Source of the DNA: a virus
Reading direction: 5' to 3' (one strand)
Virus record (IMG/VR): IMGVR_UViG_3300046009_000811
Coordinates: 1 to 37,129 of that record
Length of the DNA stretch: 37,129 nt
Shown here: piece after piece, positions 1 to 19,365 of the stretch
How positions within the stretch are numbered: position 1 is the stretch's first letter
Layout: every line of letters starts with the position of its first letter
The notes under the pieces: model-generated
Told to the model about the DNA's origin: nothing
The model's database searches: none
What the model saw: only the letters and a program-made list of their open reading frames with translations
Made by a program: the position numbers and the translations under genes

Positions 1-3
1 TCG

Positions 4-216
4 ATGGTCACAGCAGAGGCAATTAAAAGCGCAAACTCCGCGCTTCTCGGCGTCCAGCTAGGAAAAATTTGTTTGAAGAATAATATTCCGGCTAAGGAAG
101 TCGCGGAGTTTTTTGATGTGAGTAGGATGACGGTGTATAACTGGTTTAAGGGTGAAACCATCGTCTCCCCTAGGCACATAGATAAAATGCACAAACTGAT
201 CCAAAAATTATCATAA
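4..216 (+). CDS. Small helix-turn-helix DNA-binding protein (Cro/XRE-like)
   Basis: This 70-residue protein is probably a DNA-binding regulator. Residues about 28-52 read as a helix-turn-helix (IPAKEVAEFFDVSRMTVYNW): a short helix, a turn, and a recognition helix starting at the SRMTVYNW segment, followed by a basic loop and a C-terminal helix. The ATG at position 4 gives a compact, family-sized protein, but the frame is open to the window edge, so a start further left cannot be excluded. It lies upstream of the primase on the same strand with an 87-base gap, which suggests it belongs to the early region and may regulate it. No operator was identified. Confidence 0.72.
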   Translation: MVTAEAIKSANSALLGVQLGKICLKNNIPAKEVAEFFDVSRMTVYNWFKGETIVSPRHIDKMHKLIQKLS

Positions 217-303
217 GTTTAAGAGAAGGCTAGGTTAGCTACCGAAAAGGGTGCACGCCGTCACACCCCTGCCTATCTCATCTTGACGGTTATAAGGACG
301 GCT

Positions 304-3156
304 ATGCTTTCAAGGAAAGAGTTTCTTGCTCTGGTGTTACCGCCTCTTTCAGAAGGGGAACACTATTGCAGTTGGGGGAACAAGAAGGTAGGGGACAAGG
401 ATCTAATACGTCAGCGGTTCACGACCACCATAGAGGGGTTGAGCGACTTAGCAGACGGGCTACAAGCGGATGTATTCAACGCGTTCTTTGGTCTAGCGAA
501 GTACGGTCCGGCAGAGAACGGTAGGTTTGCAACCAATGCCATCGCCCTGAAATCTTTTTTCATAGACTTAGACTGCGGTGAGGGTAAGCCCTACGCAGAT
601 ATTGCCGAAGGTCTGGCGGCACTAAAAAAGTTTTGTAAAGAAGTTAAGCTACCACGCCCCACCATTCTCCAATCAGGCCGTGGTGCGCATGTGTACTGGA
701 TCCTTGAAGAGCCTATGGAGCGCAAGGAATGGAAGTTGCATGCCGAGCGACTGAAAGATCTGTGTGAAGAATACGACTTCAAGATCGACCGTGCCGTGCC
801 AGCAGATGCCGCACGCGTGCTCAGGATGCCTGAAAGCAACCACGTCAAAGATCCGAGCAACCCAATACCGTGCGTAATTTTGCATTTAGCTCCGTTGGTT
901 TCAAACGAGAGCATCAAAGAACTCCTGGCACCCACCGACGAGATACTACGGGTAGCCAACAAGGCTGAGTTCAAACGTACGATGGACCCCGTGACCCTTG
1001 CACTCATAGGGGCCAGCCAATCGAACTTCAAAGACATCCTCATCAAGTCGGTTCAGGGTACAGGTTGCAACCAGATACTGAACATCTACGAGAATCAAAA
1101 CGACCTGGAAGAGCCGTTGTGGAGAGCAGGGCTGTCGATTGCTCAGCAGTGCGCCGACAGAGACAAAGCCATCCACATCATAAGTAAGAGGCACCCAGAG
1201 TATTCACCGGAGATCACTGAGCGCAAGGCCAACGACACCAAAGGCCCATACACCTGTGAGACGTTCAAGAAGTTAAACCCATCTGGGTGCGACGGGTGCC
1301 AGCATAAGATCACATCCCCAATACAGTTAGGCCGTGAGATTGTCGAGGCTTCCGAAGAAGATAACGTGGTGAGCGGTGTCGAGGAAGCCACCAAAGAGAC
1401 CAAGACCTACAACATACCCAAGTACCCGTTTCCGTTTTTCCGTGGCAAGAATGGCGGCATATTCATCCATACCAAAGACGAGGCCGGTAACGACAAAGAC
1501 GAAGTTGTTTATCCGTACGACTTCTACGTAGTAAAACGCATGAACGACCCAGACATAGGTGAGACCCTGCTGCTACGTCTGCACCTGCCTATGGATGGAG
1601 TGCGAGAGTTCATCATGCCGCTGGCTTCGGTGCTGGCTAAAGATAAATTCAGAGACACCGTTGCTTCTCATGGCTTGGCCGTGCTCAGCAAGCAACAGGA
1701 CGCCCTTATGTTTTACGTATCTAAATGGGTAGACGAGTTACAAATGACAGCAAAAGCAGAGAAGGCACACAAACAATTTGGCTGGTTGGAAGACGACTCA
1801 GCGATCATAGTCGGAGACAGAGAAATCCGTGCGGCTGAAATCGCATATAGCCCACCCTCTTCACCAACGCTCCCGCTGGTGCCATTGTTTTCTCCCAAGG
1901 GCGACTTTCACGTGTGGAAAGAAGTTGTCAACGCGTACGGTCGTGAAGGAATGGAGAACAGGGCGTTCGCTTTCTTCATGGGTTTTGGCTGTCTGCTCAT
2001 GAAGTTCACCGCCTTGGATGGGTTCTGCCTAAATCTGATGAGCCGCCAATCTGGTTCTGGAAAGACAACAATCCTGCACGCCATCAACAGTATCTATGGC
2101 AGACCGAAAGAACTAATGCTTTCCCCGAAGGACACGTACAACGCCAGGATGCAACGGCTAGGGGTGCTACAGAACTTTGCCGCCACGATGGACGAGATCA
2201 CCAACATGCCACCTGATGTTATGTCTCAACAACTCTACGACGTGACATCTGGCAGGGCCAAGCATAGGCTGAAGCAACACGACAACGCAGAACGCCTCAA
2301 CCACACTAAGTGGGCAACTGGATTGATAACTACTTCCAATAGTTCTGTGCCTGATGCGTTGCTATCTATTAAGAGTTTTCCAGAAGGAGAACTTATGCGG
2401 GTGCTTGAGATCGGCGTGCAAGCCGACCCGTATGACGACCCGAACTGGTCACGAGACCACTTTGGCAAACTACTTACCAACTACGGTCACGCAGTCCAAC
2501 CCTATTCCCAGGCCATAGTTAGTCACCTTCCTTTTGTACGGGATCAGATGGCAGAGATGCACCGGCGTATTGATGCGGCCACCGAGGCTAAAAGTACCGA
2601 GCGGTTCTGGACTGCCATGAGCATGCTATCTATCGTTGGCGGCTCGTTTGCCAAGCAGTTGGGATTGCACGACATACCCATCAAACCCGTCTTTAACTTT
2701 GCCGTTGACCTGATTAAAGAGACACGGAACCGCAACAAGCAGTACATGTTTGACAGCGATGATTACCTTGGCGGCTTCCTACAAAAACACTTTAACGAAA
2801 TACTGGTCATCAACGGCAACCGAGACAACAAAACCGGGCTGGAGCATGCACCCATACGGGAACCCAGAGGCGCATTGACCGTGCGCTACGAGCCGGACAC
2901 CAAGATGCTGTACGTGGTGCTCAAGACCTACCGGCAGGATTGCGCAAAAGACTTTGTCAACTTTGAAGAGTCTCTGTATCCGTACCGCAAATCAAAAGCC
3001 CTCGTGGGTATCAAGAAGAAACGCATGACGGCAGGCACTGTGGCTAACACCCAGGCGGCAGTTAACGCCCTGTGCTTTGACACCACCAAACTAGAGTTCT
3101 TTACAGACGTAGTCCTTATGCACAATGCGGATACTGAACATACCTCTGCTGATTGA
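304..3156 (+). CDS. Primase-helicase fusion (AEP-type primase plus P-loop helicase)
   Basis: This is a replication protein predicted to make primers and unwind the phage DNA. Counting from the TTG at 283, the N-terminal half has the three archaeo-eukaryotic primase motifs: DLD at 95-97 after a hydrophobic strand, SGRGAH at 131-136, and a hydrophobic-D motif at D169 (FKID). A possible metal site follows at C325, C336, C339 and H341. The C-terminal half has a Walker A (QSGSGKTT, about 589-596), a Walker B (ATMDE, about 634-638) and a sensor-like LITTSN segment, as in SF3/DUF927-type phage helicases. I chose the ATG at 304 (950 residues) over the TTG at 283 because AAGGA at 294-298 sits five bases before it. 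The gene overlaps the next one by 32 bases. Confidence 0.88.
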   Translation: MLSRKEFLALVLPPLSEGEHYCSWGNKKVGDKDLIRQRFTTTIEGLSDLADGLQADVFNAFFGLAKYGPAENGRFATNAIALKSFFIDLDCGEGKPYADIAEGLAALKKFCKEVKLPRPTILQSGRGAHVYWILEEPMERKEWKLHAERLKDLCEEYDFKIDRAVPADAARVLRMPESNHVKDPSNPIPCVILHLAPLVSNESIKELLAPTDEILRVANKAEFKRTMDPVTLALIGASQSNFKDILIKSVQGTGCNQILNIYENQNDLEEPLWRAGLSIAQQCADRDKAIHIISKRHPEYSPEITERKANDTKGPYTCETFKKLNPSGCDGCQHKITSPIQLGREIVEASEEDNVVSGVEEATKETKTYNIPKYPFPFFRGKNGGIFIHTKDEAGNDKDEVVYPYDFYVVKRMNDPDIGETLLLRLHLPMDGVREFIMPLASVLAKDKFRDTVASHGLAVLSKQQDALMFYVSKWVDELQMTAKAEKAHKQFGWLEDDSAIIVGDREIRAAEIAYSPPSSPTLPLVPLFSPKGDFHVWKEVVNAYGREGMENRAFAFFMGFGCLLMKFTALDGFCLNLMSRQSGSGKTTILHAINSIYGRPKELMLSPKDTYNARMQRLGVLQNFAATMDEITNMPPDVMSQQLYDVTSGRAKHRLKQHDNAERLNHTKWATGLITTSNSSVPDALLSIKSFPEGELMRVLEIGVQADPYDDPNWSRDHFGKLLTNYGHAVQPYSQAIVSHLPFVRDQMAEMHRRIDAATEAKSTERFWTAMSMLSIVGGSFAKQLGLHDIPIKPVFNFAVDLIKETRNRNKQYMFDSDDYLGGFLQKHFNEILVINGNRDNKTGLEHAPIREPRGALTVRYEPDTKMLYVVLKTYRQDCAKDFVNFEESLYPYRKSKALVGIKKKRMTAGTVANTQAAVNALCFDTTKLEFFTDVVLMHNADTEHTSAD

Positions 3157-3325
3157 GTGGGATAAATTTAAACCAGGCACCTCATTCTTCGTGCCTTGCA
3201 TAGACCGCAAGCTAACCCAGCGGTTCGTGGAGGAAGAGGCCAACCGCCTGAAGTTTAAAGTTGTTTCCAAACAAGTTATTGAGAAGGGCGTATACGGTTT
3301 ACGCGTCTGGAGAGTTGAGGCATAA
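3125..3325 (+). CDS. Conserved-looking 66-residue protein after the primase
   Basis: This small soluble protein is encoded in another frame over the last 32 bases of the primase gene and ends just before a strong terminator. It reads LLIEWDKFKPGTSFFVPCID, then an amphipathic segment with many charged residues, and finishes GLRVWRVEA. Most of the frame lies outside the primase, so it is unlikely to be a shadow. I recall similar WDKF..G.SFFVPC proteins downstream of phage primases but know no function. A role in replication is only an inference from position. The ribosome-binding site is poor, so translation may be coupled to the primase. Confidence 0.68.
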   Translation: MRILNIPLLIEWDKFKPGTSFFVPCIDRKLTQRFVEEEANRLKFKVVSKQVIEKGVYGLRVWRVEA

Positions 3326-3367
3326 TCGCCTTGCACTCTCTTCTTTATGCTTTCTCCTTGAAAGTGA

Positions 3368-3404
3368 CCCCACTGGTTCCTCCCTCCTCCAGTGGGGTTT
3401 TTTT
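3368..3404 (+). terminator. Rho-independent terminator ending the rightward early operon
   Basis: The arms CCCCACTGG (3368-3376) and CCAGTGGGG (3389-3397) form a perfect 9-bp stem with a 12-base pyrimidine-rich loop, followed by seven Ts (3398-3404). The T-run is only on the plus strand, so the signal stops rightward transcription. The leftward late operon reaches its last stop codon at 3403-3405, and its transcript would form the same stem without a U-tract. Confidence 0.92.
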
Positions 3405-6400
3405 ATTCTTCCAACAGATCTTCTATCTCGGGCATCAGACTCTTGTTGAACCGCACGCCATTGATCGTGTTCTGTTCATAGGCTTCCCGTGCACGTTGGG
3501 ACCTGTCTAATGTCTCTGGTGTAATCCTGGCGGCTGGGTCTTTACGTGCCTCATTAAAACTGTCTATGTCGGTTTGGACTTCCTGCATCAAATCGTAGTC
3601 CCCAGCCCTGCGTGCCATGTCGTACTTATTGAGCAGTTGTGACCTACGGGTAAGCACGTCGCGCTCATACTCCTTCTTCATGGACACTTTTTCGTAGGCA
3701 GCAGACAGGTCAGCGGGGCCAAATCCAATCATCTGCATGAGTGCGTTGTAAGCAGACACATCTTCAATGATCGGTTCACCCTTGAGATTGAGGGCACCTT
3801 CGGACATGTACCGCATACCCTTCATACCGTTACGAATGAAGCTGGGCACCATTGATTCAATACCACGAACTACTTCTCCCTGCGCCACCAGTTCTGCACC
3901 GCGACCAGCACCGATGGCAAACGACCCGACCGGACCAAAAGCCTGAGACATAGCAGTCAGCACATACCCGTGCTCAGCGACGCTACGGGGGTCATCGCGG
4001 AAGATTAGATCGTTAGCAACACCCACACGGTTGGCAATTTCTAGGTTGGTCGCGTAGTTGACGCCGCCCTTGTAGAGCAGATCACCAAAGAAATCACGCA
4101 GTTCTACGTCAAGATCAAACGGCTCATCCTCATCACCAAAGAGTGCGTTGATCATGGTGGATAGAGTCGACACAGCACCCATGAACGGCAAACCTTTGAT
4201 GCCAGCAAAAGCCATAGTCATGCCGTAGATACCAAGTAATTGCCGACGTGCCTCACGCTGGATGGCAGGGGTCTCACCTTTAAATGCTTGGTGGAAGGCA
4301 CGTGCGACTACAAACGCCGAGTTCCAAATGAACGACTTAAACGTGAAGAACACCCGACCGGCTGGGTGCTGCATGTAACGCGGAGCTGTAGCGGAAAGAC
4401 CTGACGTATTGATTTGTTTGGTGGTGTTGATGGCATACCGGATGGCATCTTGTTGGTTCATGGGTTTTATACCCAGTGCAGCATTACCCTTCAAAGCTAA
4501 GTCGTAAGCAGCAATAGCCGTAGCACCACGGTTCAATACTTCAGTCTTGGCAAACGGAATAGACAGTCCATCCATGATCCGAGCTTTCAGCCCAGTAAAT
4601 TCAGATGTTGCTTCGCGTCTGCCCTCCAGCACCTCTCTAGCCAGCGTGTGTTCTAGCTGCGCATGGTTAGATAACTCATCAAACAACTTTTGGTACTTAG
4701 GAGGAACCTTGTTGTTGAAGATGTAATTGATGGCTACTTTGGATGAGTTGAACAATGCACCACTTGCTTTATCAAACCCAAACTTTGCCCCCAGGATAGA
4801 CCAGGAGAACATTGGCACCGTCGTCAAGTTGATGAGTGCGGATGAGATGTTACCGGCAATGTAGTTGAAATAGCTGAAGGTCGTGGCTGCACTGACCAAA
4901 CTGCCGTAGGTCGGGTTATGGAAAAACGCTGCTTGATCTACAACGTTTTGTGCGGCTGTGTACGCTCCGCTACCTGCCTCGGCTACTTCAGCGGCTTCCC
5001 CTTCTAAGGCTACACCACGTAGTGCCTTATCAATTTCTGGGTTGTACTTACTAGCAGAAAGTTTGCGTGCCCATTTGATCATCGTCTCCCCATAACCACG
5101 GACGATGTCTCGTTCCATACCACGCACGTTGTCGGCTTTCATAAAGTTTTTGGCCAACGACTCTGCGGGGAACAGCGCAAGATAAGACTGGTATACGCTA
5201 TTTTTGAGCGCGTCACTAGCCCCCTGCTTGTTCAACTGGTTCATCACCCCAACAATAAAAGACCCAGGGGGTAGGCTACCTTGGGTGAACTGAGCCTCAT
5301 TTATGTTGCGGTACGCTTTGTGAGGTTTGTTTTTTAGTTGAGTATTTATGAACGCTGCACGCTCACGTTCGGATTGGAAAGCCTGTACTGCACGCTCGCC
5401 GTTCTCATCGTACTCAACCCAAAAATCACCTTGGCGTAAGAATGGAATGTAGGCTATTTGACGCTTACGTGCTTCGTACTGTGCTCTTAACTTTTGCCGA
5501 ATAGACGGATCCTGAACGGAGTTAAGAAGAATGTCTTCGTACTCGTTTATCGCGTCGTTGTACGACTTACGGATGTCTTTGTAAACCTGCTGCACATCTT
5601 CAGGCAGGCTATCGTAGATTTGCTTTAGCTTGTTGTACTCAGCTACCTGTGCAGGGCTAGGTTTAAAGTTCGGGTCAATCGGGTCCACTTGCGCAAGACG
5701 GGCGTCATAGGCCATGTCATTCATGCGCTCCATAGCCTGCGGGTGCTTCTGTGCTACCTTGGTAAACCGTTTGTAGTTCTCGTTAATTTGTTCGATGCGC
5801 TGCTCTTGCGTGCCGTTGCGTCGCTCAAGAGCGTCAATTAGCTTTTGAAGTGAGGGAAGCTGAGCGCCATAGATTTCATTTATGTTATCCAGCCGTAGTA
5901 AGCCCATAGCTATGGACTTGACATCCCCCGGCATGTTGGAAATGTAGTTACGCGTGTTCTCTACAAGCCGCCCAGTTAGGCTAGGCATTGCCTGACCCAT
6001 CATCCCCACACCCTTAAACCCACGGCGCATACCGTTAGGGGTGCTCAAGAACAAAAGATCCGAAGGCGTAGGTGGCACATCAGCCGACATATCCACGGCA
6101 CGGCTGACTAATTCGATGCCCCGCTTGTATGAGTTAGTGCCTTTGCTAAACCCAAAGAACTCAGCCAAAGTCTGCATGATGCGCTTAAACAGGCTCTCGC
6201 TCTTAGGTGCCTTGATGGTCTTAAGAAGTGCTTGGAACTCTGGGTTACTGACCAACTCTGCAGCAAATTCTTGGAGGTTTTCTCCACCGTACGCATTACC
6301 CAACTGATTTCTGATCTGCTCAAAGAAGTTACCAAACTCCTTACTCAAAGGCAGATTCCGGTTGTTAAGCACGTGGGAGATGGCAGCGTGCACTAACTCG

Positions 6401-9204
6401 TGCAACACCGTGTGCTCATTCATCCCAACATCGGGATTGATGGTTATGGTATCTGTGCGTGGGTCGTACGAGCCTGCTTTGTTACCTTCTACTGCACCCA
6501 ACTGGATCTTAGTCTTCAGGTTCAGACTCTTGATCTTGGCAAGGATGCGCTGCACGTCTTTGTTATCGGTGCCAGCTTTTAAGTTGTCGATAACACCTTT
6601 TAGATTGCCAGTCTCAACCAACGCACGGCCAGCATCATTAAGATCAGGTCCACGATGCTCAGGCAGGAAGAGTGTCTCGCCAGTCTTCTCAAAGTAAGCC
6701 TGGTTAAAAGCATCAAGTTCTTCGTCCGTAACTTCTGCCGTCTTGCCAGCTTTTCTTTTTGGCGGCTTGCGCTCAAATGACGTTTTGCCAGGGCGTACCT
6801 CGGCTGCTCTACGCTTACGATCTTCCAACCGCTCCCTAAACTCTGGGTCAGCCTGCACCGTGTCGAGGATCTGTGCTTTGGCTTCGCGGTTCATCTCACT
6901 GAAAATTGCTTCGCGGCGACTAGCAGGGACCGTGTTAAGTGCTGTGAAGAACTCGGCACCACCAATATCTTTTATGACTTGCTCTAGTGAAGCAAAGTCC
7001 TCTTTGTCTTTCTTACGCTTGGCCCGATCTTTTTTGGAGACTTGCTCGTCCGGTATTGCCAGCACATCTTTAAGACGGAAGAACTCATTGACTAGCTGCG
7101 GCAGGCGGATGTAGTTGTAGGCATCGGTGTCTACGAAGTCCTCAAGGTTCACATCTGCTGGGTCAATACCGACCTCGGCAAGTTCGTCAGCGGCTGCTTG
7201 CTTTATAAAATTAGTTGCCCGTCTGTCAGCCTCTTGCACTATCTCTAGTGTAGGCTTGACTGCTCCTTCTCCAACATCAGCGCGTTCAACAGTAGGTTCA
7301 ACTGTTTCCAGTTCTCCAGTGACAGGCTCTCCAGTTCTTTCGGTATCTGCACTAATAACTTCTGTTGGCACAGTAGTTGGAACGCTAGGCTCACCTGCTC
7401 CGGCGATAAATCCTGTAGTGGGTTCACTTGGCGTTACCTCCGTCGGTGCCGCAGTTGCTGGTGCTTCTTTTGTGGTCTGGAACTCAGGACGCTTGAGGTA
7501 CTCCTCAATTTTTGCAGCCGCACCTTCTGCGGGTTTACCTGATGCGTATGCCTCCAGCACACGTTTGACCTCGGCAGCGTCCTCTGGCTTAGATATATCT
7601 TTGCCAGCCAAGGGGCCATCTTCTTTTAGAATTTTGGCAGTGGGGCCAATACCGAACTGTTTACCAAAAGTTTTTAATGCGTTCTTGTCGCTACCAATAG
7701 CAGTGCTGGGTGCAGTGGGCGGTGTAACAGCAGTCTCAGTAGTAGCTGGTGCCGCAGATGGGGGCATGCCTGTAAACAAATCACCCTGACCAGTAGCCTC
7801 AGCTTCGGCAGCACGTGCAGCCTCTTGGGCTTGCAACGTATCAATTTCTTCTTTGCTGAACCCAGGCAGTGTGGCCTGCTTAGCAGCCAGGTACTTTTTA
7901 AGTTGTTCTTGGTACTTCTTTAGGTCAGCGGCTTGTCGTTTAGCTTCTTCACGGGCACGGTTAGCCGTTGCCTTTTGATCTTTGGTTGCGGCTTTTTCTG
8001 CCGCTTGAGTCAGGTTGCCCTTCTCATCAAACAATGATAGTTGCTTACCTGTAAGAGAGTCTTTGGCATCCTTGGCTGCTTTAGCTGCTACAGACTGTGG
8101 CTGTATGAGGCTTGTGTATACGCCCGTGTCCATCCCAGGCAATTGCATCTGTGGGTTGGCTAATTGAATCTGTTCGATCTCTGCTTCAGCCGCTGCAACT
8201 TCTTTACGCAATCTCGCTGCTTCTTGCCTTTGGCCACGCCTCTCTAGTGCATCAGCCATTTGCCGTTTGCGCTCAGCACCGGCACGCATAGATTCAATCC
8301 CACCACCAGTACCACCAAATGCACTACCCGCAATCGACCCACGGATGCTGGACTCGATAATCCGTTCCCATTCTTTACTGCCAAATACCTCTGGGTTCTC
8401 GTCGATGAACCGCTCAGCCGCGATACTAATAGACTCTTGTGCGCCTTCAGTCAGACCCTCAGTGCCAGCACCGGTGAATATGCCAGCCGTTGTGCCGCGC
8501 AACACACCCTTGTCCATGCCTGATTTCTCAAGCAGTTTCTCCACCACCCCTATACGCATCGGCCCAGTAAGTTGTCTGGCTAATGTGGCAGGGAGAACAG
8601 AGTCTAGGGCAGCAGACACAGAGCCAAACATAAGCGCCGTGGGTACTTCCATCTTCCCAGTTTCCTGGTAGATGTTTTGGAATATCTCTGGAGCGCTCTG
8701 GGCATACGACCCTAAAAACGTACCCGCTCCTACAGCAGCAGTCTGAGCAGCAGCACCAACGCCAGCACGGGCAGCAAGAGCACCAGCACCCACACCAGGA
8801 ATGAGAGAAGTAGCGATGTTGGGGACTTGCTCGATAACAGTTTCAAGTCCATACCCAAGAAGGTCTCCAGGACCGCCAATATCTTTGTAGGACTTATATT
8901 GCGGAGCATAGTAGGTTGCTATTTCCTCTTCTGTGGCAGCAGCTTCCCCCATCTGGCGCTTGGCGTAATCCTCAAACCCAAGAGCCTGCCCAGCCATAGC
9001 GGGGATGATGTCCCCAAACGTAGTGCCTAGCCGCTTCTTACCCCGTTCAAAAGCACGACTAGCCATCTCCCCAGTAGTAAGTTCTGCCCTAGGGATCTCA
9101 AACTCATATTTCTTAGAGAGTGCTTCTAACTGAGATTTGAACTCTTCATCAGTTATGTCATCCCTAAACCGAACAGGCCCAACTTTAGGGAGGGTAAGAA
9201 TCAT
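3403..9204 (-). CDS. Giant polyvalent ejection/internal virion protein with zincin motif
   Basis: At 1933 residues this is the largest gene, and it is the last of the late operon. The N-terminal ~300 residues mix charged helices with Gly/Ala-rich hydrophobic stretches (about 140-180 and 275-290). About 305-460 is coiled-coil rich in A/E/K/R/Q. About 470-690 is a Pro/Thr/Ala-rich linker. A zinc-peptidase motif HELVH lies at 935-939, followed by an LQEFAAELVSNP helix that could supply a third glutamate ligand. The rest is mostly helical, with hydrophobic segments near 1400-1650. The position matches the T7 gp16-type slot for injected proteins, and the build matches phage 'large polyvalent proteins'. 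Cell-wall or host-protein cleavage during DNA entry is an inference. Two bases separate it from the upstream stop. Confidence 0.82.
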   Translation of the reverse strand: MILTLPKVGPVRFRDDITDEEFKSQLEALSKKYEFEIPRAELTTGEMASRAFERGKKRLGTTFGDIIPAMAGQALGFEDYAKRQMGEAAATEEEIATYYAPQYKSYKDIGGPGDLLGYGLETVIEQVPNIATSLIPGVGAGALAARAGVGAAAQTAAVGAGTFLGSYAQSAPEIFQNIYQETGKMEVPTALMFGSVSAALDSVLPATLARQLTGPMRIGVVEKLLEKSGMDKGVLRGTTAGIFTGAGTEGLTEGAQESISIAAERFIDENPEVFGSKEWERIIESSIRGSIAGSAFGGTGGGIESMRAGAERKRQMADALERRGQRQEAARLRKEVAAAEAEIEQIQLANPQMQLPGMDTGVYTSLIQPQSVAAKAAKDAKDSLTGKQLSLFDEKGNLTQAAEKAATKDQKATANRAREEAKRQAADLKKYQEQLKKYLAAKQATLPGFSKEEIDTLQAQEAARAAEAEATGQGDLFTGMPPSAAPATTETAVTPPTAPSTAIGSDKNALKTFGKQFGIGPTAKILKEDGPLAGKDISKPEDAAEVKRVLEAYASGKPAEGAAAKIEEYLKRPEFQTTKEAPATAAPTEVTPSEPTTGFIAGAGEPSVPTTVPTEVISADTERTGEPVTGELETVEPTVERADVGEGAVKPTLEIVQEADRRATNFIKQAAADELAEVGIDPADVNLEDFVDTDAYNYIRLPQLVNEFFRLKDVLAIPDEQVSKKDRAKRKKDKEDFASLEQVIKDIGGAEFFTALNTVPASRREAIFSEMNREAKAQILDTVQADPEFRERLEDRKRRAAEVRPGKTSFERKPPKRKAGKTAEVTDEELDAFNQAYFEKTGETLFLPEHRGPDLNDAGRALVETGNLKGVIDNLKAGTDNKDVQRILAKIKSLNLKTKIQLGAVEGNKAGSYDPRTDTITINPDVGMNEHTVLHELVHAAISHVLNNRNLPLSKEFGNFFEQIRNQLGNAYGGENLQEFAAELVSNPEFQALLKTIKAPKSESLFKRIMQTLAEFFGFSKGTNSYKRGIELVSRAVDMSADVPPTPSDLLFLSTPNGMRRGFKGVGMMGQAMPSLTGRLVENTRNYISNMPGDVKSIAMGLLRLDNINEIYGAQLPSLQKLIDALERRNGTQEQRIEQINENYKRFTKVAQKHPQAMERMNDMAYDARLAQVDPIDPNFKPSPAQVAEYNKLKQIYDSLPEDVQQVYKDIRKSYNDAINEYEDILLNSVQDPSIRQKLRAQYEARKRQIAYIPFLRQGDFWVEYDENGERAVQAFQSERERAAFINTQLKNKPHKAYRNINEAQFTQGSLPPGSFIVGVMNQLNKQGASDALKNSVYQSYLALFPAESLAKNFMKADNVRGMERDIVRGYGETMIKWARKLSASKYNPEIDKALRGVALEGEAAEVAEAGSGAYTAAQNVVDQAAFFHNPTYGSLVSAATTFSYFNYIAGNISSALINLTTVPMFSWSILGAKFGFDKASGALFNSSKVAINYIFNNKVPPKYQKLFDELSNHAQLEHTLAREVLEGRREATSEFTGLKARIMDGLSIPFAKTEVLNRGATAIAAYDLALKGNAALGIKPMNQQDAIRYAINTTKQINTSGLSATAPRYMQHPAGRVFFTFKSFIWNSAFVVARAFHQAFKGETPAIQREARRQLLGIYGMTMAFAGIKGLPFMGAVSTLSTMINALFGDEDEPFDLDVELRDFFGDLLYKGGVNYATNLEIANRVGVANDLIFRDDPRSVAEHGYVLTAMSQAFGPVGSFAIGAGRGAELVAQGEVVRGIESMVPSFIRNGMKGMRYMSEGALNLKGEPIIEDVSAYNALMQMIGFGPADLSAAYEKVSMKKEYERDVLTRRSQLLNKYDMARRAGDYDLMQEVQTDIDSFNEARKDPAARITPETLDRSQRAREAYEQNTINGVRFNKSLMPEIEDLLEE

Positions 9205-9206
9205 CT

Positions 9207-10622
9207 TTAATCTTCCATTAGGTCTTCAACACTGGGGATGCCGCTATCTTGGCTTCCTAGCATAGCAAGTTCTCTGATGCGCCCTTCTTTTTGCCGATTG
9301 AACTGCGCCATGATCTCAGGACTCTTTGCCCAATTACTACCAAAACGCTTTTCAAACTCGCTTCTAAGAGCTGGCTCTTCCTTATTCGTGAAGAACTCAC
9401 GAGCCTTCAGTGTTGCTTGCACCTGTGCTTGACCTAATCTAGCTTTAGCTATTGCATTTCGGGCTTGGGAATCAGAAAGCCGCCCCTCGTAGTAGGCTTT
9501 TTGAACAGCCGCTGTTTGCCTATCAATATTAAGTTTCTCTTGCTGTAGACCAAGCCTATCGGCGTTGTCCTTAGCGTCCATAAATGCTTTGAAGTCTCCG
9601 CGCTTGCGAGCATCTTCAGCACGAGAAAGTTCAGCACGCATCTTCATTGCGTCACGTTCTTGAGCCTTGATGTCCTTGATGTCACCGGCGTACTGCATCA
9701 GGCCACGCTGAGCACCTGCGGAAATATTCTCTAAGGCGTTTCTTGAGGTGCCACCCATGATGCCAAGACCAGCTTGCAGGAGTGCCATGTACTTAGCTTG
9801 TTGGCGATCTTCTTTTGAACCTTTAGCAAGAGCCTCAATTTGTTTTTTGAAGTCCGCATCCGGGTCAGCGCCGATACCAAAAGCGGCTTGCTGTGCTTTG
9901 AAACTTTCAGGGGTAATACCCTGCGTGGGTATGAGTTTCTTCCCTTCCTCAGTTATGAGAGACACATCCGACTTCGGTGCTTTAGGCGTAGGTTTAGTTG
10001 AAGCAGCAGGGGTAGCAGGAGCAGCGGGTGCTGGTGTTGTGGTCGGAGCCGCCGGTGCAGTGGGTGCCGCAAACTGAGCCGGTTGTCTGGTTAAGGGTAA
10101 ACTTCCAAGGAAAGACCCGCTCTCTACTGGCGTACTACCAATCGCACTACGCAGCCGCTCAGGTAACTTCCCACTTCTGTTGTATTCCTGAAGTTCAGGC
10201 AGCGTCAGCATATTGATAAGGTCTTCCCGTGGCATGGACATCTGATCTGCACCCATACCAAAATTGGGATCGGCAACCAAGCCTTGGTTTTGGAACCGTT
10301 CTACCTGACCACCGTCTTCAAATGCTACGATCCCACCGCCAACAAACTCAGGCGTGGGTACAGGCAACTGGTCAATACCTTCCCCAGCACCATTCATTTG
10401 CTCGGCTTTGGCCATAACCATATCGCTAATTGGCGGCTCATCCGCAGGAGGCGCAATACCTTGTTGTCCTGCCATACGCATGCGCTGCTCAAACTGTATC
10501 TTTTCTTCAAGAAGTGGGATGCCGATATATCCTGGGAGGGTACGGTTTTTGAGTGCCTCTTGGATTTGCGCAATAGACATCTTCTCAGCTAAGGCCACAC
10601 GGCCAAGTCCCCTTACGCTCAT
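9207..10622 (-). CDS. Internal virion/ejection-module protein
   Basis: This 471-residue protein has no recognised enzyme domain. The N-terminal ~60 residues are helical (SIAQIQEALKNRTLPGYIG). About 75-115 contains the tag GEGIDQLPVPTPEFVGGGIV followed by EDGGQV. About 180-225 is a Pro/Ala/Thr linker, and the rest is long charged helices likely to form coiled coil. Its start overlaps the stop of the upstream gene by four bases (ATGA) and it runs directly into the giant polyvalent gene, so these products are probably made together. The context points to an ejected internal virion protein. The GEGID tag recurs in the neighbouring genes. Confidence 0.7.
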   Translation of the reverse strand: MSVRGLGRVALAEKMSIAQIQEALKNRTLPGYIGIPLLEEKIQFEQRMRMAGQQGIAPPADEPPISDMVMAKAEQMNGAGEGIDQLPVPTPEFVGGGIVAFEDGGQVERFQNQGLVADPNFGMGADQMSMPREDLINMLTLPELQEYNRSGKLPERLRSAIGSTPVESGSFLGSLPLTRQPAQFAAPTAPAAPTTTPAPAAPATPAASTKPTPKAPKSDVSLITEEGKKLIPTQGITPESFKAQQAAFGIGADPDADFKKQIEALAKGSKEDRQQAKYMALLQAGLGIMGGTSRNALENISAGAQRGLMQYAGDIKDIKAQERDAMKMRAELSRAEDARKRGDFKAFMDAKDNADRLGLQQEKLNIDRQTAAVQKAYYEGRLSDSQARNAIAKARLGQAQVQATLKAREFFTNKEEPALRSEFEKRFGSNWAKSPEIMAQFNRQKEGRIRELAMLGSQDSGIPSVEDLMED

Positions 10623-12106
10623 GCTGCCACCTTTTTCATAACGTTTTGTAGGGCTAGAGTATCAATTCCTTCCTCAATCTTTCCACCCTCTTTCTTGCCC
10701 GAGGCCAGACCATACGCCGCTGCACCTGTCAGACCTAGACCTGCTAGTTGAGACACAGGGCTTGGCGCTGCCTGGTATTGAGAGACCGTAGTAACCGGAG
10801 TCTGATAGCCACGTAACAGAGCGTTGTACGCCGCCAGTCGCTGCTGCGGATTTTCCTGGGCCATCGCGTAGTTCTGGATAGCCTGATTGATGATCTGTTG
10901 CTCCTGAGACTGCTGCGCCCCACCAACCTGCTGTTGGAACTGTAACCGCGCAATGTCTGCTGCTTGTTGCTGCTGAGCAATATCTGCAAGTGAACGACCC
11001 ATCTGGCCCATAAGTCCGTAGCCAGCCTGAGCACCAGATACACCTTGTAGTCCGACGCCTGCCCCTTGCATACCCAGACCGTAGAGTTGACCGGCCTGAC
11101 TAAGACCACGCATACCAGCTTCTTGCCCAGCCATCGCCTGGCCGATACCCGCAAGGCCAAGTTGACCACCAGAAAGTGCTGTCCCAAGCCCTGATTGCGC
11201 TCCTTGAAGCCCCTGTAGTCCCGTAGTAACACCGAACTGCTGTGCTTGTTGTGCTTGTTCAAACGCTCTTTGAAGTCCTTGAGCTTCAATGTCACTAAGC
11301 TGTTGTTGTAACCCGGCCTCACGCTGTCCTTGAAGAAGCGCCTGTCGGGCACCGCCGTATGTACCTGTGCGAACCGAGCCTAAGTTCTGGCCGAGTTGAG
11401 CACGTTGGGCGTCATCAATAGCTTTGCGTTTAGCAACTTCTGTCACCCGCTGTTGGTAGGGAGACATATAGGCTTGGATAGACCGTGGGTCTGTAGCCAT
11501 TTGCTCATACAGACTGCCCATATCTGCTGCCTGCCGAGCATATCCACGCGCCTCTTGACCAATATCCCTACCAAGTTCTTCAGCACGTAGGCCCATACCA
11601 CCAATGTCTGCTGCGGTTCGGCCATAGAGTTGTGCTTCGGGAGCCATGCCAGCGCCCATCATTCCGTAACCAGCACCAAGCTGTCCATATCGAGCCGCAT
11701 CTGCCGCAGTCCCATAACCACCCATACCCGCAGCACCAACCATTCCTTGTCCAGCACCAAAGCCACCAGGCCGCTGCATTGCCCCAGCTTCGTACATTGC
11801 CTGCTGCTGCATAGGGCTAAACGGAGCAAAGTAGTCACGGGGATTGGCACTATAGGGTGTAAACGGTTTGACGCCTGTAATGTTGTATGTGCCGTCTGGG
11901 CCTCTTTCTGTTTGGAAAGTCTCTTGCGTCGCAGCACCCAGGAGCGCTTCGGTTTGGGGTCTCAGCCAATCAGGAATTGATTGTTGAGTGACTGTGCTTG
12001 TTGTGTGGGAGGGCCCACCACCGCCACCACCTTCTAAGGTCATGCCACCAAAGGGACGCTTCTGAAAAGCCCGCTCGGGCAGCATTGAAAAGTGATCGTA
12101 TCTCAT
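10619..12106 (-). CDS. Gly/Ala/Gln-rich internal virion protein
   Basis: This 495-residue protein has an N-terminus containing GGMTLEGGGGGGPSH and then a WLRPQTEALLG segment. The centre (about 95-400) is strongly enriched in G, A, Q, M and Y, with irregular repeats such as GAGYGMMGAGM and QAGYGLMGQMGRSLADIAQQ, compatible with extended amphipathic helices. The C-terminus carries GGKIEEGIDTLALQNVMKK, a version of the tag seen in both neighbours. Four-base overlaps join it to the genes on both sides. It fits a T7 gp14/gp15-like ejection protein slot by position only. No catalytic motif is visible. Confidence 0.7.
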   Translation of the reverse strand: MRYDHFSMLPERAFQKRPFGGMTLEGGGGGGPSHTTSTVTQQSIPDWLRPQTEALLGAATQETFQTERGPDGTYNITGVKPFTPYSANPRDYFAPFSPMQQQAMYEAGAMQRPGGFGAGQGMVGAAGMGGYGTAADAARYGQLGAGYGMMGAGMAPEAQLYGRTAADIGGMGLRAEELGRDIGQEARGYARQAADMGSLYEQMATDPRSIQAYMSPYQQRVTEVAKRKAIDDAQRAQLGQNLGSVRTGTYGGARQALLQGQREAGLQQQLSDIEAQGLQRAFEQAQQAQQFGVTTGLQGLQGAQSGLGTALSGGQLGLAGIGQAMAGQEAGMRGLSQAGQLYGLGMQGAGVGLQGVSGAQAGYGLMGQMGRSLADIAQQQQAADIARLQFQQQVGGAQQSQEQQIINQAIQNYAMAQENPQQRLAAYNALLRGYQTPVTTVSQYQAAPSPVSQLAGLGLTGAAAYGLASGKKEGGKIEEGIDTLALQNVMKKVAA

Positions 12107-12534
12107 AATTGAACTTCCACTAAAGTAGTTCGTGGCTCAAAGCCGTACCGTTTCCATAAACGCACGATAGATTCTCTACCGTATCCCTGGACTTTTGTCG
12201 CCCCGCGCTGCTTTAGAATCATCTTCAACTGCTCAAACGTGTCTCTGTTTGAAATCAACTTGCCGCCGATAAGAGTGATGAACGCCACTCTGGCCATCGG
12301 GTAGTTCGCAAAAGACACTGTGGCTGCACCGTGGATTTCTCCTTGTTCATCTACAGCCACCAACAACAACCACATACCGCTCGTTAAGAATCCTTGGACA
12401 TGATGTATGTTGTAACAGTTACTCCACTCCGGCGCATCATTGTCTTTGACCAGGGCGTCAATTAAAAAATTGTCTACACGCGGCCATATCTGGGCAATGT
12501 AATTGGTATCAACAACCTGGATAGAAAGATTCAT
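12103..12534 (-). CDS. GNAT-like protein of the ejection module
   Basis: This 143-residue protein looks like a small acyl-CoA N-acyltransferase fold. There is a strand with small residues (WLLLVAVDEQGEIHGAATVSF) matching GNAT strands 2-4, a middle V-A-F-I-T-L-I-G strand leading into a helix, and a C-terminal GRESIVRLWKRYGFEP segment like the end of GNAT proteins. The acetyl-CoA loop Q/RxxGxG/A is not convincing, so catalysis is uncertain. T7 gp13, an internal virion protein, also has a GNAT-like fold and a similar position among ejection genes, so a structural role is possible. It overlaps both neighbours by four bases. Confidence 0.68.
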   Translation of the reverse strand: MNLSIQVVDTNYIAQIWPRVDNFLIDALVKDNDAPEWSNCYNIHHVQGFLTSGMWLLLVAVDEQGEIHGAATVSFANYPMARVAFITLIGGKLISNRDTFEQLKMILKQRGATKVQGYGRESIVRLWKRYGFEPRTTLVEVQL

Positions 12535-13178
12535 TTTTTCAACAGTGAGTCAATACCTTCTCCGTGAACCTTGCCGCCTGCTTTTGCACCGCCACCACCA
12601 TGATAATTACCGGTATTTGCAAATTGCATCGCCGCATCAGCCGCGCCCTCTGATCTCGCCTGGCTTACCAACTGATCTATTGATGTTTGGCTTGCAATTG
12701 GGATAGGCCGATACTGTGACTTCATCGGCTGCGGAGAGAGCATGGGTGCGTCGTAGTTTACGGAGTAAGGATAATTAGATGGTCCTTGCCCAAATCCGCT
12801 CAATGCTTCACCGGCGCCACGAAAAAGTTTTTTGAACGCGCTACCTCTAGGTTGTGTTTGCTGCATAGGTATTGGGTTGTATTGAGTTTGCATTGGCTGC
12901 GGGGTCATAGGCTGAGGCATCTGATCCATCGTTCTAACCTGCTGGTCATAACTCGGACGATAGATTGGCTGGTAGAGCTGTTGGTTCGGACCAAACGGCA
13001 TGTAGTTCGGCCTACGTGATGCAGTGTAGGGATCGTATTGACCAGGGGATGGTTCATACATTTGATTGGATGCACCGCGCCCCAACTGCTGATTAAACGC
13101 ATGTTGGTTTATGGCGTTGTAAAACTCTTGCATGTGTGGCTGCTGCGGACTTATCATCCTGCCGACTGCTGATCCCAT
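12531..13178 (-). CDS. Pro/Gln/Tyr-rich virion-associated protein with C-terminal GEGID tag
   Basis: This 215-residue, mostly disordered protein is rich in Q, P, Y, N and M (for example YMPFGPNQQLYQPIYRPSYD). A short helical N-terminus is followed by repeated PQPM and QYxPIP motifs: one copy near 95-110 (QTQYNPIPMQQ) and another near 155-165 (KSQYRPIPIASQ). The C-terminus is GGGGAKAGGKVHGEGIDSLLKK, the clearest copy of the tag found in this module. GGAGAT precedes the ATG. No function is recognised. Position and tag suggest a minor virion or ejection component. Confidence 0.65.
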   Translation of the reverse strand: MGSAVGRMISPQQPHMQEFYNAINQHAFNQQLGRGASNQMYEPSPGQYDPYTASRRPNYMPFGPNQQLYQPIYRPSYDQQVRTMDQMPQPMTPQPMQTQYNPIPMQQTQPRGSAFKKLFRGAGEALSGFGQGPSNYPYSVNYDAPMLSPQPMKSQYRPIPIASQTSIDQLVSQARSEGAADAAMQFANTGNYHGGGGAKAGGKVHGEGIDSLLKK

Positions 13179-13187
13179 GCCTATCTC

Positions 13188-14126
13188 CTACGCAGGAATG
13201 TACTTGTTGGGATTGATTTCTTTGCCCTGGCGCTTAGTTCCAGTACGGGACTTGCGTACTTTGTCCATCATGGCATAGAGCTTCCGCGCACCAGCGTCTG
13301 TGGACCCATTGCCTAGGCCAGAAACGACATCTGCCGGAACGACAAACTCACCGTCTGCTAAACGAGCAGGCTGCTTGGCTCCAATCTTGGCGGGGATGCT
13401 GTCAGACATTCCATCGCCCGGCCCTTTCAGTAAACGGCCACCATCGGAGTAAGAACCCAGATGACCACCTTTCATGTAACGCTGTGCCACTGCGGAGTCT
13501 GCTAGGCCACCACTTGCCATTGAAGAGCGATACCGGTCAGGGTTGTAGTTGAATCGACTAAGGGGGCCACTATACTTTTCCTCTTCCGGCAGACCTTCTA
13601 CGTCATACATCTGACCAATTGCGGATGTTGCTGCACCCAGACCAGCAGGCATGAGCACGGGATTTCTAGCGTAAAAGGAATTAATGGACGGGAAGGTAGG
13701 CGTCGATACTGGACCAGCACCAGCCATTTTACCTGCTGATACTTGTGTTGGTGTTAGTTGGGTAGCTAACTCAGACCCCTGATAGCTAATACCCCTGGAA
13801 ATATCTCCCATTAAAGCATTTTGTGCTGCTAAGTCTCCGGCTGTTCCACCTACCCCAGCACCAGATGCTCCGGTAATCCCCGTTGTTGCGATTGGAGAAG
13901 CACCTCCAACACCTGATCCTGCTGCTGCTCCAGTCGTACTTACCGAACTTACGGGAGCTGCTGCCGCCCCACTTGCTCCAGCACCAGCCCCAGCAATCCC
14001 GGCCCCAACACCACCACCGGCAGCGCCTAGAAGAGCACCTTTAAGCGGGTCTCCACCTGTTATTGCAGAAGTACCAGCGCCCGTTACGGCACCAATGATC
14101 ATCGCCTCGCCTACGCCCGTACCCAT
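13188..14126 (-). CDS. Glycine-rich virion protein with DSIPA / LADGEFVVPADVV motif
   Basis: This 312-residue protein has a first ~75 residues that form a Gly/Ala-rich hydrophobic stretch (AGTSAITGGDPLKGALLGAAGGG...), resembling membrane-active glycine-zipper segments. Near 235-275 comes GPGDGMSDSIPAKIG and then ARLADGEFVVPADVVSGLGN, followed by a basic tail ending NPNKYIPA. I recall the DSIPA...DGEFV pair in virion or ejection proteins of many aquatic phages, but its role is not known to me. AGGAGG (14132-14137) sits five bases before the ATG, and a candidate promoter lies upstream. This may be the head of an ejection sub-operon. Confidence 0.72.
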   Translation of the reverse strand: MGTGVGEAMIIGAVTGAGTSAITGGDPLKGALLGAAGGGVGAGIAGAGAGASGAAAAPVSSVSTTGAAAGSGVGGASPIATTGITGASGAGVGGTAGDLAAQNALMGDISRGISYQGSELATQLTPTQVSAGKMAGAGPVSTPTFPSINSFYARNPVLMPAGLGAATSAIGQMYDVEGLPEEEKYSGPLSRFNYNPDRYRSSMASGGLADSAVAQRYMKGGHLGSYSDGGRLLKGPGDGMSDSIPAKIGAKQPARLADGEFVVPADVVSGLGNGSTDAGARKLYAMMDKVRKSRTGTKRQGKEINPNKYIPA

Positions 14127-14155
14127 GAAATCCTCCTAAATACTTGAATTGACAT

Positions 14156-14184
14156 ATTATCCGCGATTTATTAGCCATTGACTA
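14156..14184 (-). promoter_or_regulatory. Candidate promoter upstream of the ejection module
   Basis: On the minus strand TAGTCA (14179-14184) and GATAAT (14156-14161) are 17 bases apart, in one of the few gaps of the late operon (14127-14181), followed by an AGGAGG ribosome site. The -35 matches the sigma70 consensus at only four of six positions, so this is a weak call. Confidence 0.33.
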
Positions 14185-15075
14185 GGCTACGGTCACCGTC
14201 GGAGCTGTTCCAGAAATCACCAAAGTGTCAATGCTCGGCTTGACTGTTACGTCCGGTACTGCTGAAACAAACGTAATAGATCCTATCGCCGAGGGTATTG
14301 CCGGTCTTGCAAAAGGAGACACCTGCGGCCCATCGTGGAAAATATAGACCCCATCTGTCGGTACCGTAGGGTCTCCTGCCTGATCTGTAGCCCAGTAAAG
14401 CTCAACCTCGTCACCCACTTGCATACTAAATGTGGCTTCTGAATAGGCGGCATTAAAACCTTCATCACCAGGGCTGGCGCTTTTTCGGGCTGGAATTGTA
14501 AAGATCGTGGCCGAGTTTGCCACATCAACACCGTTAACTTTTATCCAAACCGTAGCGTAGTGAACGTCATTGGCCGTATTAATGAACTGTAGGCTGTAGG
14601 TAATCTTATATACCCCAGCATAATCAGCCGTTGCCGATCCGGGCGCAGCCAATGTCCAACCAAACCCAGAATCCAGTGTGTTCCACTCTACAACCGTAGG
14701 CGTGTTATTGCCGCCAGCAATCTGGTCTGTCGAGTCTGAGGCAGAGATATGGGGGAAGATAATCCTATGCCCACTGCCGTTGAATACCCCGCCATTGAAC
14801 TGCTCGCCGCTAAAACTCCCGCCGTTAAAGTAGGTTCCGTTTAATGTCGTGCCGTTAAACGTGTTCCCAGTAAAAACATCGCCGGTGTAGTCATCCCCGC
14901 TAAAGTCTCCACCAATAAACTCATCTGCACGGTAGGAGTTGGCCTGCTGAGGGGTAAGCGAATCTAATTTGTTGAAGTACAACCGCAAAGCATTGATTAA
15001 CTGGTCCATCTGCTGACGGTCGTACTGCTCCCGTGGCAGAGGAAGTGCTGGTGCGCGGAATCCTATGAGGGCCAT
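14182..15075 (-). CDS. Tail fibre-like protein: pentapeptide stem plus C1q-like head
   Basis: This 297-residue protein is modular. Residues 1-50 (LPLPREQYDRQQMDQLINALRLYF) look like a tail-attachment helix. Residues 51-100 are ten perfect, uninterrupted pentapeptides of the form xx(F/Y/L)xG, predicted to form a right-handed beta-helix. About 103-250 resembles a C1q/TNF-like jelly roll, with strands such as GVYKITYSLQFINT, ATVWIKVNG and GDEVELYWATD. The last ~35 residues hold two copies of a repeat (LVISGTAPTVTV) that also builds the protein at 25861-26817. It overlaps the nozzle gene by one base. Receptor binding or a virion appendage is the likely role. Confidence 0.75.
   Translation of the reverse strand: MALIGFRAPALPLPREQYDRQQMDQLINALRLYFNKLDSLTPQQANSYRADEFIGGDFSGDDYTGDVFTGNTFNGTTLNGTYFNGGSFSGEQFNGGVFNGSGHRIIFPHISASDSTDQIAGGNNTPTVVEWNTLDSGFGWTLAAPGSATADYAGVYKITYSLQFINTANDVHYATVWIKVNGVDVANSATIFTIPARKSASPGDEGFNAAYSEATFSMQVGDEVELYWATDQAGDPTVPTDGVYIFHDGPQVSPFARPAIPSAIGSITFVSAVPDVTVKPSIDTLVISGTAPTVTVA
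14776..14925 (-). repeat. Ten tandem pentapeptide codons (xx[FYL]xG) in a fibre stem
   Basis: Residues 51-100 of the fibre protein read DEFIG GDFSG DDYTG DVFTG, then NTFNG TTLNG TYFNG GSFSG, then EQFNG GVFNG. Every fifth residue is Gly and every third position of the unit is F, Y or L, without a break. Confidence 0.85.
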
Positions 15076-17294: not shown

Positions 17295-17296
17295 GA

Positions 17297-17764
17297 TTAG
17301 GCAACCAATCCAGGTAAGTAGACCGTCTTTCCATCTTTCCTGGTGGCGGTCATGACCTGTTTCTTCAGATCTTTGTCATCGTAACTAACATGAACCCAAC
17401 CACTGTCAGGTACGCCAGGAGTATAGAATTCCAAAATAAGCTGTGTGTAAGCCAGGTTGTCTCTAATATAAGCAGCAAGCTCTGCATTTGGCACCCCCGG
17501 TATCTCAATGTCAGCAGCCATCCCCCGGCAGTGATCCGAGGTTCTAGACCCCCCTACTTTAGCATTTACATCCGGCGAGCGATAGCCCGAGTTAACCTTG
17601 ACGCCCTTCTGGTAGTGGTCACGAATGGGCTGCAATACGTTGGCGCAGAGGTTCAAAAGGTTGTTCAGTTCGTCTGGGCCAGGGTTGTTCTCCATGCCAT
17701 GACGCAGCGCCGTCTCAGACTTCACCATCTCAGCTAGGCTGAAGTTCTTGGTCAGTTGGGTCAT
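17297..17764 (-). CDS. Endolysin-type M15 peptidase
   Basis: This 155-residue cell-wall peptidase has the Peptidase_M15 pattern: VNSGYRSPDVNAKVGG at 57-72, SDHCRGMAAD at 76-85 and WVHVS at 123-127. Predicted zinc ligands are H78, D85 and H125. It has no signal peptide or transmembrane segment, so it should need a holin to reach peptidoglycan, where it would cleave the peptide crosslink or stem. It overlaps the holin gene by four bases (ATGA) and is the last gene of the lysis cassette. The size is usual for this family. Confidence 0.88.
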   Translation of the reverse strand: MTQLTKNFSLAEMVKSETALRHGMENNPGPDELNNLLNLCANVLQPIRDHYQKGVKVNSGYRSPDVNAKVGGSRTSDHCRGMAADIEIPGVPNAELAAYIRDNLAYTQLILEFYTPGVPDSGWVHVSYDDKDLKKQVMTATRKDGKTVYLPGLVA

Positions 17765-18860: not shown

Positions 18861-18933
18861 CGTCAGCCATCTCTTTGCTTTATTTTGTCAAGCTCAACCT
18901 GAGCCTAGATTTTTAGTAATTCGATGTCGATAG

Positions 18934-19352: not shown

Positions 19353-19365
19353 TTTTTCCTCTTAA

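Follow-up and report, generated by a model that had tools for sequence, protein, structure and literature searches.

A zincin-bearing polyvalent protein of ejection type in a virus record, with a catalytic core kept with and without effector cargo

The locus described here bears on the passage of megadalton ejection complexes through a narrow tail and on their change of shape afterwards, and it raises a narrower question as well, namely what a peptidase would do in the middle of a protein that is probably sent into the host. The window analysed is a whole virus record of 37,129 bases (IMG/VR record IMGVR_UViG_3300046009_000811), and the gene in question is an uninterrupted open reading frame (ORF) of 1933 amino acids (aa) on its minus strand (3403..9204 including the stop codon, with the ATG at 9204), opposite a plus strand that is full of stops. 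A sequence-only reading of this DNA had described the ORF as a polyvalent protein that ends the ejection module and carries a HELVH peptidase motif at residues 935-939. The ORF is indeed real and closes a late gene block, the motif is present as the sole HExxH of the protein, and the matches to LPD39 and NF032893 mark a polyvalent or ejection-type protein; proteins of this sort are believed to be packaged by phages and sent into the cell.

It is highly probable, in our view, that the 1933-aa protein is an ejected virion protein. The best overall explanation, which we regard as likely, is an ejection protein with a peptidase that acts on a constant substrate, most likely on the ejection proteins themselves. 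From sequence, predicted fold, conservation, gene order and family matches we infer the packaging, the ejection, the zinc binding, the proteolysis and the substrate. In a podophage-like virus, the protein would be the large internal virion protein whose gene comes last; the capsid would contain it, and it would enter the cell envelope or the cytoplasm together with the DNA. Its chassis would consist of an N-terminal helical domain, flexible linkers, the zincin (residues 872-1040), LPD39, and a PLxRFG module of ~670 residues. The zincin would be the constant enzyme of this chassis, and other effectors would be optional cargo, which relatives accommodate in the linkers or in one of the zincin's loops. 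During or after ejection, the zincin would cut a constant substrate, most probably the ejection proteins (its own linkers or its neighbours), and the cleavage would let the ejection complex pass, rearrange, or come apart. Since the catalytic residues persist whether or not cargo is present, a constant substrate is proposed, and the ejection machine is favoured as that substrate because the same zincin occurs in gp16-type and N4-type ejection proteins.

Fold and conservation of the zincin

The zincin domain (residues ~872-1040; 6085..6591, minus strand) is placed by a structural model and by structural and profile matches. Its HELVH motif (6388..6402, minus strand) is predicted, from the motif itself and its conservation, to supply two zinc ligands and the general base. 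Any HExxH occurred in 0.69% of 20,000 shuffles of the protein, and the significance of the motif rests on conservation more than on this frequency. Relatives were collected in two scans of viral contigs: the first yielded 6 loci and the second 74, among which the six contigs found earlier recur. With the window these amount to 75 ORFs, 60 of them complete (1799-2613 aa) and 15 cut by a contig end, and the collapse of near-copies left 50 representatives. Eight insert-bearing or long rows of these 50 (L013, L023, L029, L030, L037, L045, L046, and L060) were dropped from the alignments A2 and A3. The sequence-only reading had held that loss of HExxH in close relatives would speak against a peptidase; none has lost it, and the motif is present in 75/75 family ORFs. 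Moreover, H935, E936, H939, E979, and E983 are invariant in all 50 representatives with both codons used at each, and positions 937 and 938, which lie between invariant residues, admit 10 and 8 different residues. For His/Glu/His the count is an unbiased test, because 68 of the 74 non-window ORFs carry the seed LQEFAAE without the seed GMNEHT that adjoins HExxH, and the counts for Glu979 and Glu983 are biased since the loci were found mostly via LQEFAAE.

Outside this family, megablast found no DNA-level relative for positions 1-20000 of the window among 50,697 phage records, and the single 1933-aa sequence had no match in the PDB at E 5. Named phages gave 75 records matching the protein, all with <60% identity and none over >80% of its length. 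None of 148 pattern stretches in genome contigs, searched for prophages, encodes a relative, and no host was found in this way.

The AlphaFold model of residues 858-1933, built with 42 sequences, has a mean pLDDT of 77.1. It contains a helix (882-893), three strands (899-902, 911-914, and 919-922), the HExxH helix (930-946), and the Glu979 helix (977-986), in the helix-sheet-two-helix order of zincins, which is also that of the peptidase type of Iyer et al. (PMC5512222; this and the other papers are cited from those parts of the text that were available to us). A helix with a third ligand and a long helical C-terminus had both been anticipated from the letters, and both are seen on the model. 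The sheet and the HExxH helix are covered with a pLDDT of 78-88 (10-residue blocks, up to 967). The proposed check for a zincin fold around HELVH thus yielded a modelled fold, whose best structural match is the C1 domain of the virion RNA polymerase (vRNAP) of phage N4: VIA-align placed it at the top for residues 858-1039 (9pnr 2124-2366, 164 residues, 3.6 Å) with a Z of 7.9, a level that models without a clear match also reach; by the tool's own warning, a Z <8 may reflect a common arrangement. The second N4 entry (9pnt) followed with Z 7.8 and other zincins were lower (Z 4.3-5.6). This structural match to N4 C1 agrees with the sequence evidence. Among predicted viral proteins (BFVD), Foldseek returned 97 matches for the model, the best being proteins of uncultured phages, several of them named large polyvalent, with an internal core protein of a Ralstonia phage (1.7e-7) and the internal virion protein D of a Roseobacter phage (4.1e-6) among the lower ones. 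In Pfam, MPTase-PolyVal (PF18818) does not list the 1933-aa protein at E 1 and is matched by one of 42 family members at E 0.064.

Apart from the level of the Z score, some further observations speak against the assignment. The pLDDT is only 61-72 over the Glu979 helix and 34-52 over the following linker (1038-1097), the N4 sequence is matched weakly by our zincin profile (E 0.024 in a set of five proteins), and Foldseek against the PDB with the 1076-residue model gave no match at E <= 0.001, only long and meaningless helical alignments. Nevertheless, we take the zincin to be a real domain on the joint strength of predicted fold, conservation, and homologues. The same three lines speak against a chance HExxH in a helical protein, an explanation that the conservation and the profile-profile comparison in practice refute and that we consider very improbable even though such strays do occur: T7 gp16 has a HERLH at 559 that no zincin profile matches around the motif, and T7 gp16 was rejected as a bearer of the zincin.

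Whether the domain still works is a separate matter. As a structural relic, the zincin would bind metal or nothing and serve only as a fold in the ejection core, and this would sit well with the literature, in which no activity was found; the N4 preprint (PMC12633501), in its available text, mentions no protease activity and gives the whole C-terminal part a regulatory role. However, the general base Glu936 is invariant despite silent codon change (GAG in 34 and GAA in 16 of the 50 representatives), and a structural metal site would not need this residue, which makes a relic quite unlikely. The zincin looks catalytically intact and is probably an active peptidase.

The same zincin in podophage ejection proteins

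Searched against the PDB, the zincin profile found three chains below 0.001: 23sg_S 'gp10' (1.3e-6), 9sfn_G 'internal virion protein' (7.4e-6), and 8vb2_A 'tetrameric ejection protein (gp48)' (1.3e-4). Stretches of these chains are 100% identical to Klebsiella phage F19, Pseudomonas phage LKD16, and Pectobacterium phage PhiM1, whose proteins (F19 gp44, LKD16 gp37, and PhiM1 gp48) belong to PHROG 342, the T7 gp16 type. In each of them HExxH is present together with a Glu at the position of residue 979, and that of 983 is taken by Gly, Trp, and Gln. Four further phiKMV-type phages keep HExxH and the first Glu (seven of seven in total), and one of the four has a Glu at 983. Since the Glu at the 979 position is kept in all seven phiKMV-type proteins while 983 varies, Glu979 (6268..6270, minus strand) is favoured as the probable third zinc ligand. 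A profile-profile comparison of the zincin with the phiKMV-type proteins gave 98.3% over 159 columns, with an E-value that covers one comparison and not a search. Furthermore, a match to the virion RNA polymerase PHROG (E 7.3e-17) covers residues 415-563 of LKD16 and links the polyvalent, phiKMV-type, and N4-type kinds.

The genes of these three proteins (L089, 4178-7969, in PhiM1; L090, 4385-8104, in F19; L091, 4025-8038, in LKD16) encode a HExxH zincin that has no Pfam zincin family at E 0.5, and PHROGs labels the zincin region 'endolysin domain'. In PhiM1, residues 268-528 have been called endolysin/exotransglycosidase-like (PMC11440229), and the HEAAH at 385 lies inside this interval. The accessible parts of that paper contain no occurrence of protease, metallo-, or HExxH, and those of a review on ejection proteins (PMC8954989) none of zinc, protease, or peptidase. 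The HExxH of C1 is pointed out in the preprint on N4 (PMC12633501). No paper that assigns a zincin to the phiKMV-type ejection proteins was found in the open literature, most subscription journals lying outside this scope, and in the literature examined, as far as its text was available, no job is assigned to the zincin of N4-type or phiKMV-type proteins.

As to the substrate, we give about even chances to the ejection proteins, the 1933-aa protein included; a host protein is possible, with a clearly smaller chance, and a substrate that is neither of the two is unlikely. Iyer et al. (PMC5512222) proposed for polyvalent peptidases in general the processing of proteins before packaging or in the head, the release of domains after entry, and the attack on host proteins. 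According to the last of these, the zincin would be an injected effector that cleaves a host protein of defence, envelope, or transcription. A constant host substrate would explain the conservation without cargo equally well, the cargo of the family is host-modifying in type, and 11 of 42 members show weak Pfam similarity to the toxin peptidase family Tox-MPTase4 (best 2.5e-5). Yet phiKMV-type and N4 ejection proteins, whose hosts differ widely, share this domain, which points to a function in ejection, and an arms-race enzyme would be expected to be sometimes swapped or lost; an injected effector peptidase is therefore rather improbable.

For a substrate within the ejection machine, a candidate recognition or cleavage site is LFLS at residues 1051-1054 (6043..6054, minus strand), a conserved [LM][FY] motif behind the zincin in the low-confidence linker. 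[LM] is found at 1051 in 46 and [FY] at 1052 in 44 of the 50 representatives, and the strict motif in 31.

An insertion site within the zincin

In the 1933-aa protein, the loop between the first and second strands of the zincin (around residue 906; 6481..6492, minus strand) is empty, and none of the relatives' cargo is present. In some relatives this slot is filled. Among 40 rows (35 of the 75 were excluded for an alignment score <45 or for being too short; L036, whose 5' end is cut, is included here and absent from the tree), seven have 98-204 residues between the flanks after residue 906, and the other 33 have a spacing of 3-10. The inserts of L013 (residues 960-1139) and L037 are the ADP-ribosyltransferase ART-PolyVal (PF18760; E 4.4e-30 and 5e-30). 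At E 0.1, those of L023, L029, L030, and L045 have no match in Pfam, and they could represent effectors not yet described; the insert of L036 resembles that of L023 (72%). Six of the seven begin with G-[PQ]-[ML]-[AS]-L and the one of L030 with EEGLAL, the flanks themselves having been used to locate these borders, and the contents differ. When the slot is traced on a FastTree phylogeny of the C-terminal module, its six complete carriers require six changes, and carriers stand beside empty sisters (L012/L023, L028/L045, L008 and L009/L013). L046 was omitted from this count, as its alignment is uncertain and a further HExxH domain lies in its insert. From these sequences, the loop after 906 is a recurrent insertion site for interchangeable domains.

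Other inserts lie elsewhere. A second HExxH domain follows residue 634 in L017, L028, and L045, L009 has a weak acetyltransferase match (E 8e-4, below the cut-off), and an insert upstream of the zincin in L026 (residues 989-1344) has a weak YkuD match (E 0.087). By eye, residues ~1186-1417 of L066 resemble the L026 insert, possibly a peptidoglycan enzyme (L,D-transpeptidase).

Such cargo invites a further explanation, in which the polyvalent protein is a polyprotein that its zincin cuts into separate effectors after entry. The ADP-ribosyltransferase and other domains in the linkers or the zincin loop of relatives would be the effectors to be released, the [LM][FY] motif behind the zincin (F/Y at 1052 in 44/50) would offer a place to cut, and domain release is among the roles that Iyer et al. 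(PMC5512222) proposed for such peptidases generally. However, 37 of the 49 other representatives have no insert of at least 95 aa at any one site relative to the 1933-aa protein (inserts that are split could be missed), and all of them keep HExxH. Furthermore, excision of cargo that is nested in the sheet of the zincin would break the peptidase chain. We hold it unlikely that cargo release is the enzyme's sole task, and return to a peptidase that acts on a constant substrate.

Several points weigh against that reading, too. N4 vRNAP is packaged unprocessed (Iyer et al., PMC5512222), which counts against an obligatory self-cleavage before ejection. Motifs of the LFLS type are not enriched in the protein (187 found versus 200.5 expected), and a general self-cleavage motif was rejected on this count, with only the spot at 1051 kept. 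PHROG 342 has no match to the whole 1933-aa protein at E 0.1; the protein would work like the T7 gp16 type by analogy, although it is not filed in this family. Finally, the N-terminal domain has no credible fold match (Foldseek against the PDB, VIA) and is not clearly membrane-spanning.

A catalytic core that is kept without cargo, together with cargo that comes and goes at fixed sites, makes a role in ejection and an action as effector testable against each other. From the slot one also learns how injected effectors are exchanged by phages and where to seek new ones.

The rest of the protein, its neighbours, and known systems

The N-terminal domain (residues 1-345; 8170..9204, minus strand) is helical and Gly/Ala-rich, with a mean column identity of 30% within the family, and its model is helical with a pLDDT of 73.6. 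The sequence-only reading had proposed membrane-like Gly/Ala parts, a coiled coil, and a Pro/Thr linker. Residues ~100-300 are Gly/Ala-rich, but 'membrane-like' holds for composition only, as a single 20-residue stretch of the 1933 aa has a mean hydropathy >1.4 and nine N-terminal helices average -1.0 to +1.3. Predicted helices at 277-322 and 326-344 fit the coiled coil, and residues ~400-700 are Pro/Thr-rich. VIA matches of the N-terminal part (best Z 8.2, a ZIP transporter, 91 residues, 4.7 Å) were dropped as lying within the tool's stated noise, and with an N-terminal profile no credible match emerged from the PDB or from T7, N4, or phiKMV-type proteins. The variable Pro/Thr-rich and charged linkers (residues ~351-850; 6655..8154, minus strand), which include highly charged stretches, are poorly conserved (column conservation 0.12-0.35 per 50-residue block), and relatives carry extra domains there after W483, W634, and W841. 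Behind the zincin, LPD39 (PF18858; residues 1092-1247; 5464..5931, minus strand) is matched at E 1.3e-16 with 61.3 bits, above its cut-off of 27, and is a domain specific to polyvalent proteins. It is followed by the 'tail-700' PLxRFG module (NF032893; residues 1251-1923; 3436..5454, minus strand), which is common to giant DarB-like phage proteins (408.8 bits, E 4.3e-122, cut-off 100); PHROG 10089 'DarB-like antirestriction' spans residues 1236-1924 (E 8.5e-83). Of the domains with disparate activities that polyvalent proteins join in one chain, this copy offers the zincin and perhaps LPD39, and further enzymes are found only in relatives. Weak Pfam matches (Nif11, ISP_coupler, FliG_C, and others) were discarded as noise, and a weak C-terminal VIA match to a T7 core protein (9jyy_I, Z 4.7, 224 residues, 6.0 Å) was not used as evidence.

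The gene is the final one of a minus-strand late block, in which several genes match virion, holin, and endolysin families, and it is thus encoded with virion genes. Directly upstream lie a 471-aa gene (9207..10622, minus strand; a fast-evolving candidate member of the ejection cluster, present in 21 of the 52 loci with enough upstream DNA), a Gln/Gly-rich 495-aa gene (10619..12106, minus strand; likewise a candidate, in 49/52), and a 143-aa gene (12103..12534, minus strand; 19/47 loci) that is acetyltransferase-like by eye only and has no Pfam family at E 0.1. No family match was found for these upstream genes. On the other side, a convergent DUF927 primase-helicase (283..3156, plus strand), assigned by family match and gene order, closes the module and is next in all 67 loci with at least 1200 nucleotides of downstream sequence. 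T7 has the order 13-14-15-16 with the largest gene last, and the ejection-protein review (PMC8954989, available parts) gives the same order of gp14, gp15, and gp16 for podophages. The 1933-aa gene, as the largest and last of its cluster, fits this order by analogy, with different sizes and upstream genes that lack a family match.

Elsewhere in the window, a homing-endonuclease-like gene with GIY-YIG and NUMOD3 (36231-36956, minus strand) stands at the edge of the virion block, and an MptE-like protein (PF01973, E 4.8e-20; 27303-28169, minus strand) amid structural genes. A 1332-aa protein of repeated Thr/Gly-rich units (20796-24794, minus strand) is perhaps a fibre or adhesin by eye. Two adjoining genes (34368-34859 and 34864-35352, minus strand), which both start near QYDVKS and end with FYG, resemble tandem paralogues by eye.

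Compared with known systems, the PLxRFG/DarB-like giants (NF032893, PHROG 10089) share the C-terminal ~850 residues including the tail-700. A C-terminal profile made from A3 matches seven of eight large proteins of seven named phages (E 2.5e-144 to 1.1e-165), always near the end, whereas the zincin profile matches none of the eight at E 1; the C-terminal module is therefore the widely shared part, and this family has the zincin as its constant enzyme. The 1933-aa protein has no adenine methylase or SWI2/SNF2 Pfam family at E 1, and shares with DarB the C-terminus alone. In the giant DarB-like proteins of PEp14, Mwe-JY07, and Skulduggery (L082, L085, and L086), a HExxH precedes the C-terminal module by 200-310 residues and is not matched by the zincin profile.

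Phage polyvalent proteins with zincins and LPD39 were already described by Iyer et al. in 2017 (PMC5512222), and the present protein is of this kind. It resembles them in LPD39, in a HExxH zincin with a Glu helix, in a length >1000 aa, and in a place among late virion genes; unlike them, this copy has no second recognised enzyme and its zincin no match to MPTase-PolyVal (PF18818). The slot between the first two strands is unmentioned in the available text of that paper, where zincin inserts lie between the two C-terminal helices. Within the limits given, three things are new: the tie to ejection proteins of the phiKMV type, the cargo slot nested in the zincin, and the reasoning from conservation without cargo.

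The phiKMV-type proteins share the HExxH-Glu zincin and are likewise encoded by the last gene of the internal-virion-protein cluster. They are shorter (1239-1337 aa), only short weak stretches of them match the 1933-aa protein beyond the zincin, and a Pfam search (NCBIfam was not run on them) found no LPD39 at E 0.5. N4 vRNAP (gp50) differs by its RNA polymerase, for which no family or PDB chain was found in the 1933-aa protein, and the C-terminal part of the latter has no sequence match to 3008 N4 residues. On the other hand, gp50 has a HELVH at 2228, its C1 zincin fold is shared by the 1933-aa protein (Z 7.9), and the order given in the available text of the N4 preprint (PMC12633501), an N-terminal domain, another domain, the zincin C1, and the helical C2, is the same in both. 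Taken together, these comparisons suggest a tentative proposal, to which we would not yet give even odds: a zinc peptidase may be the shared core of PLxRFG polyvalent, phiKMV-type gp16-like, and N4 vRNAP ejection machines and act on the machine itself, and in the present family the loop between its first two strands may have become a cargo bay for unrelated effectors with similar border peptides, which would make one domain both a processing enzyme and a delivery vehicle.

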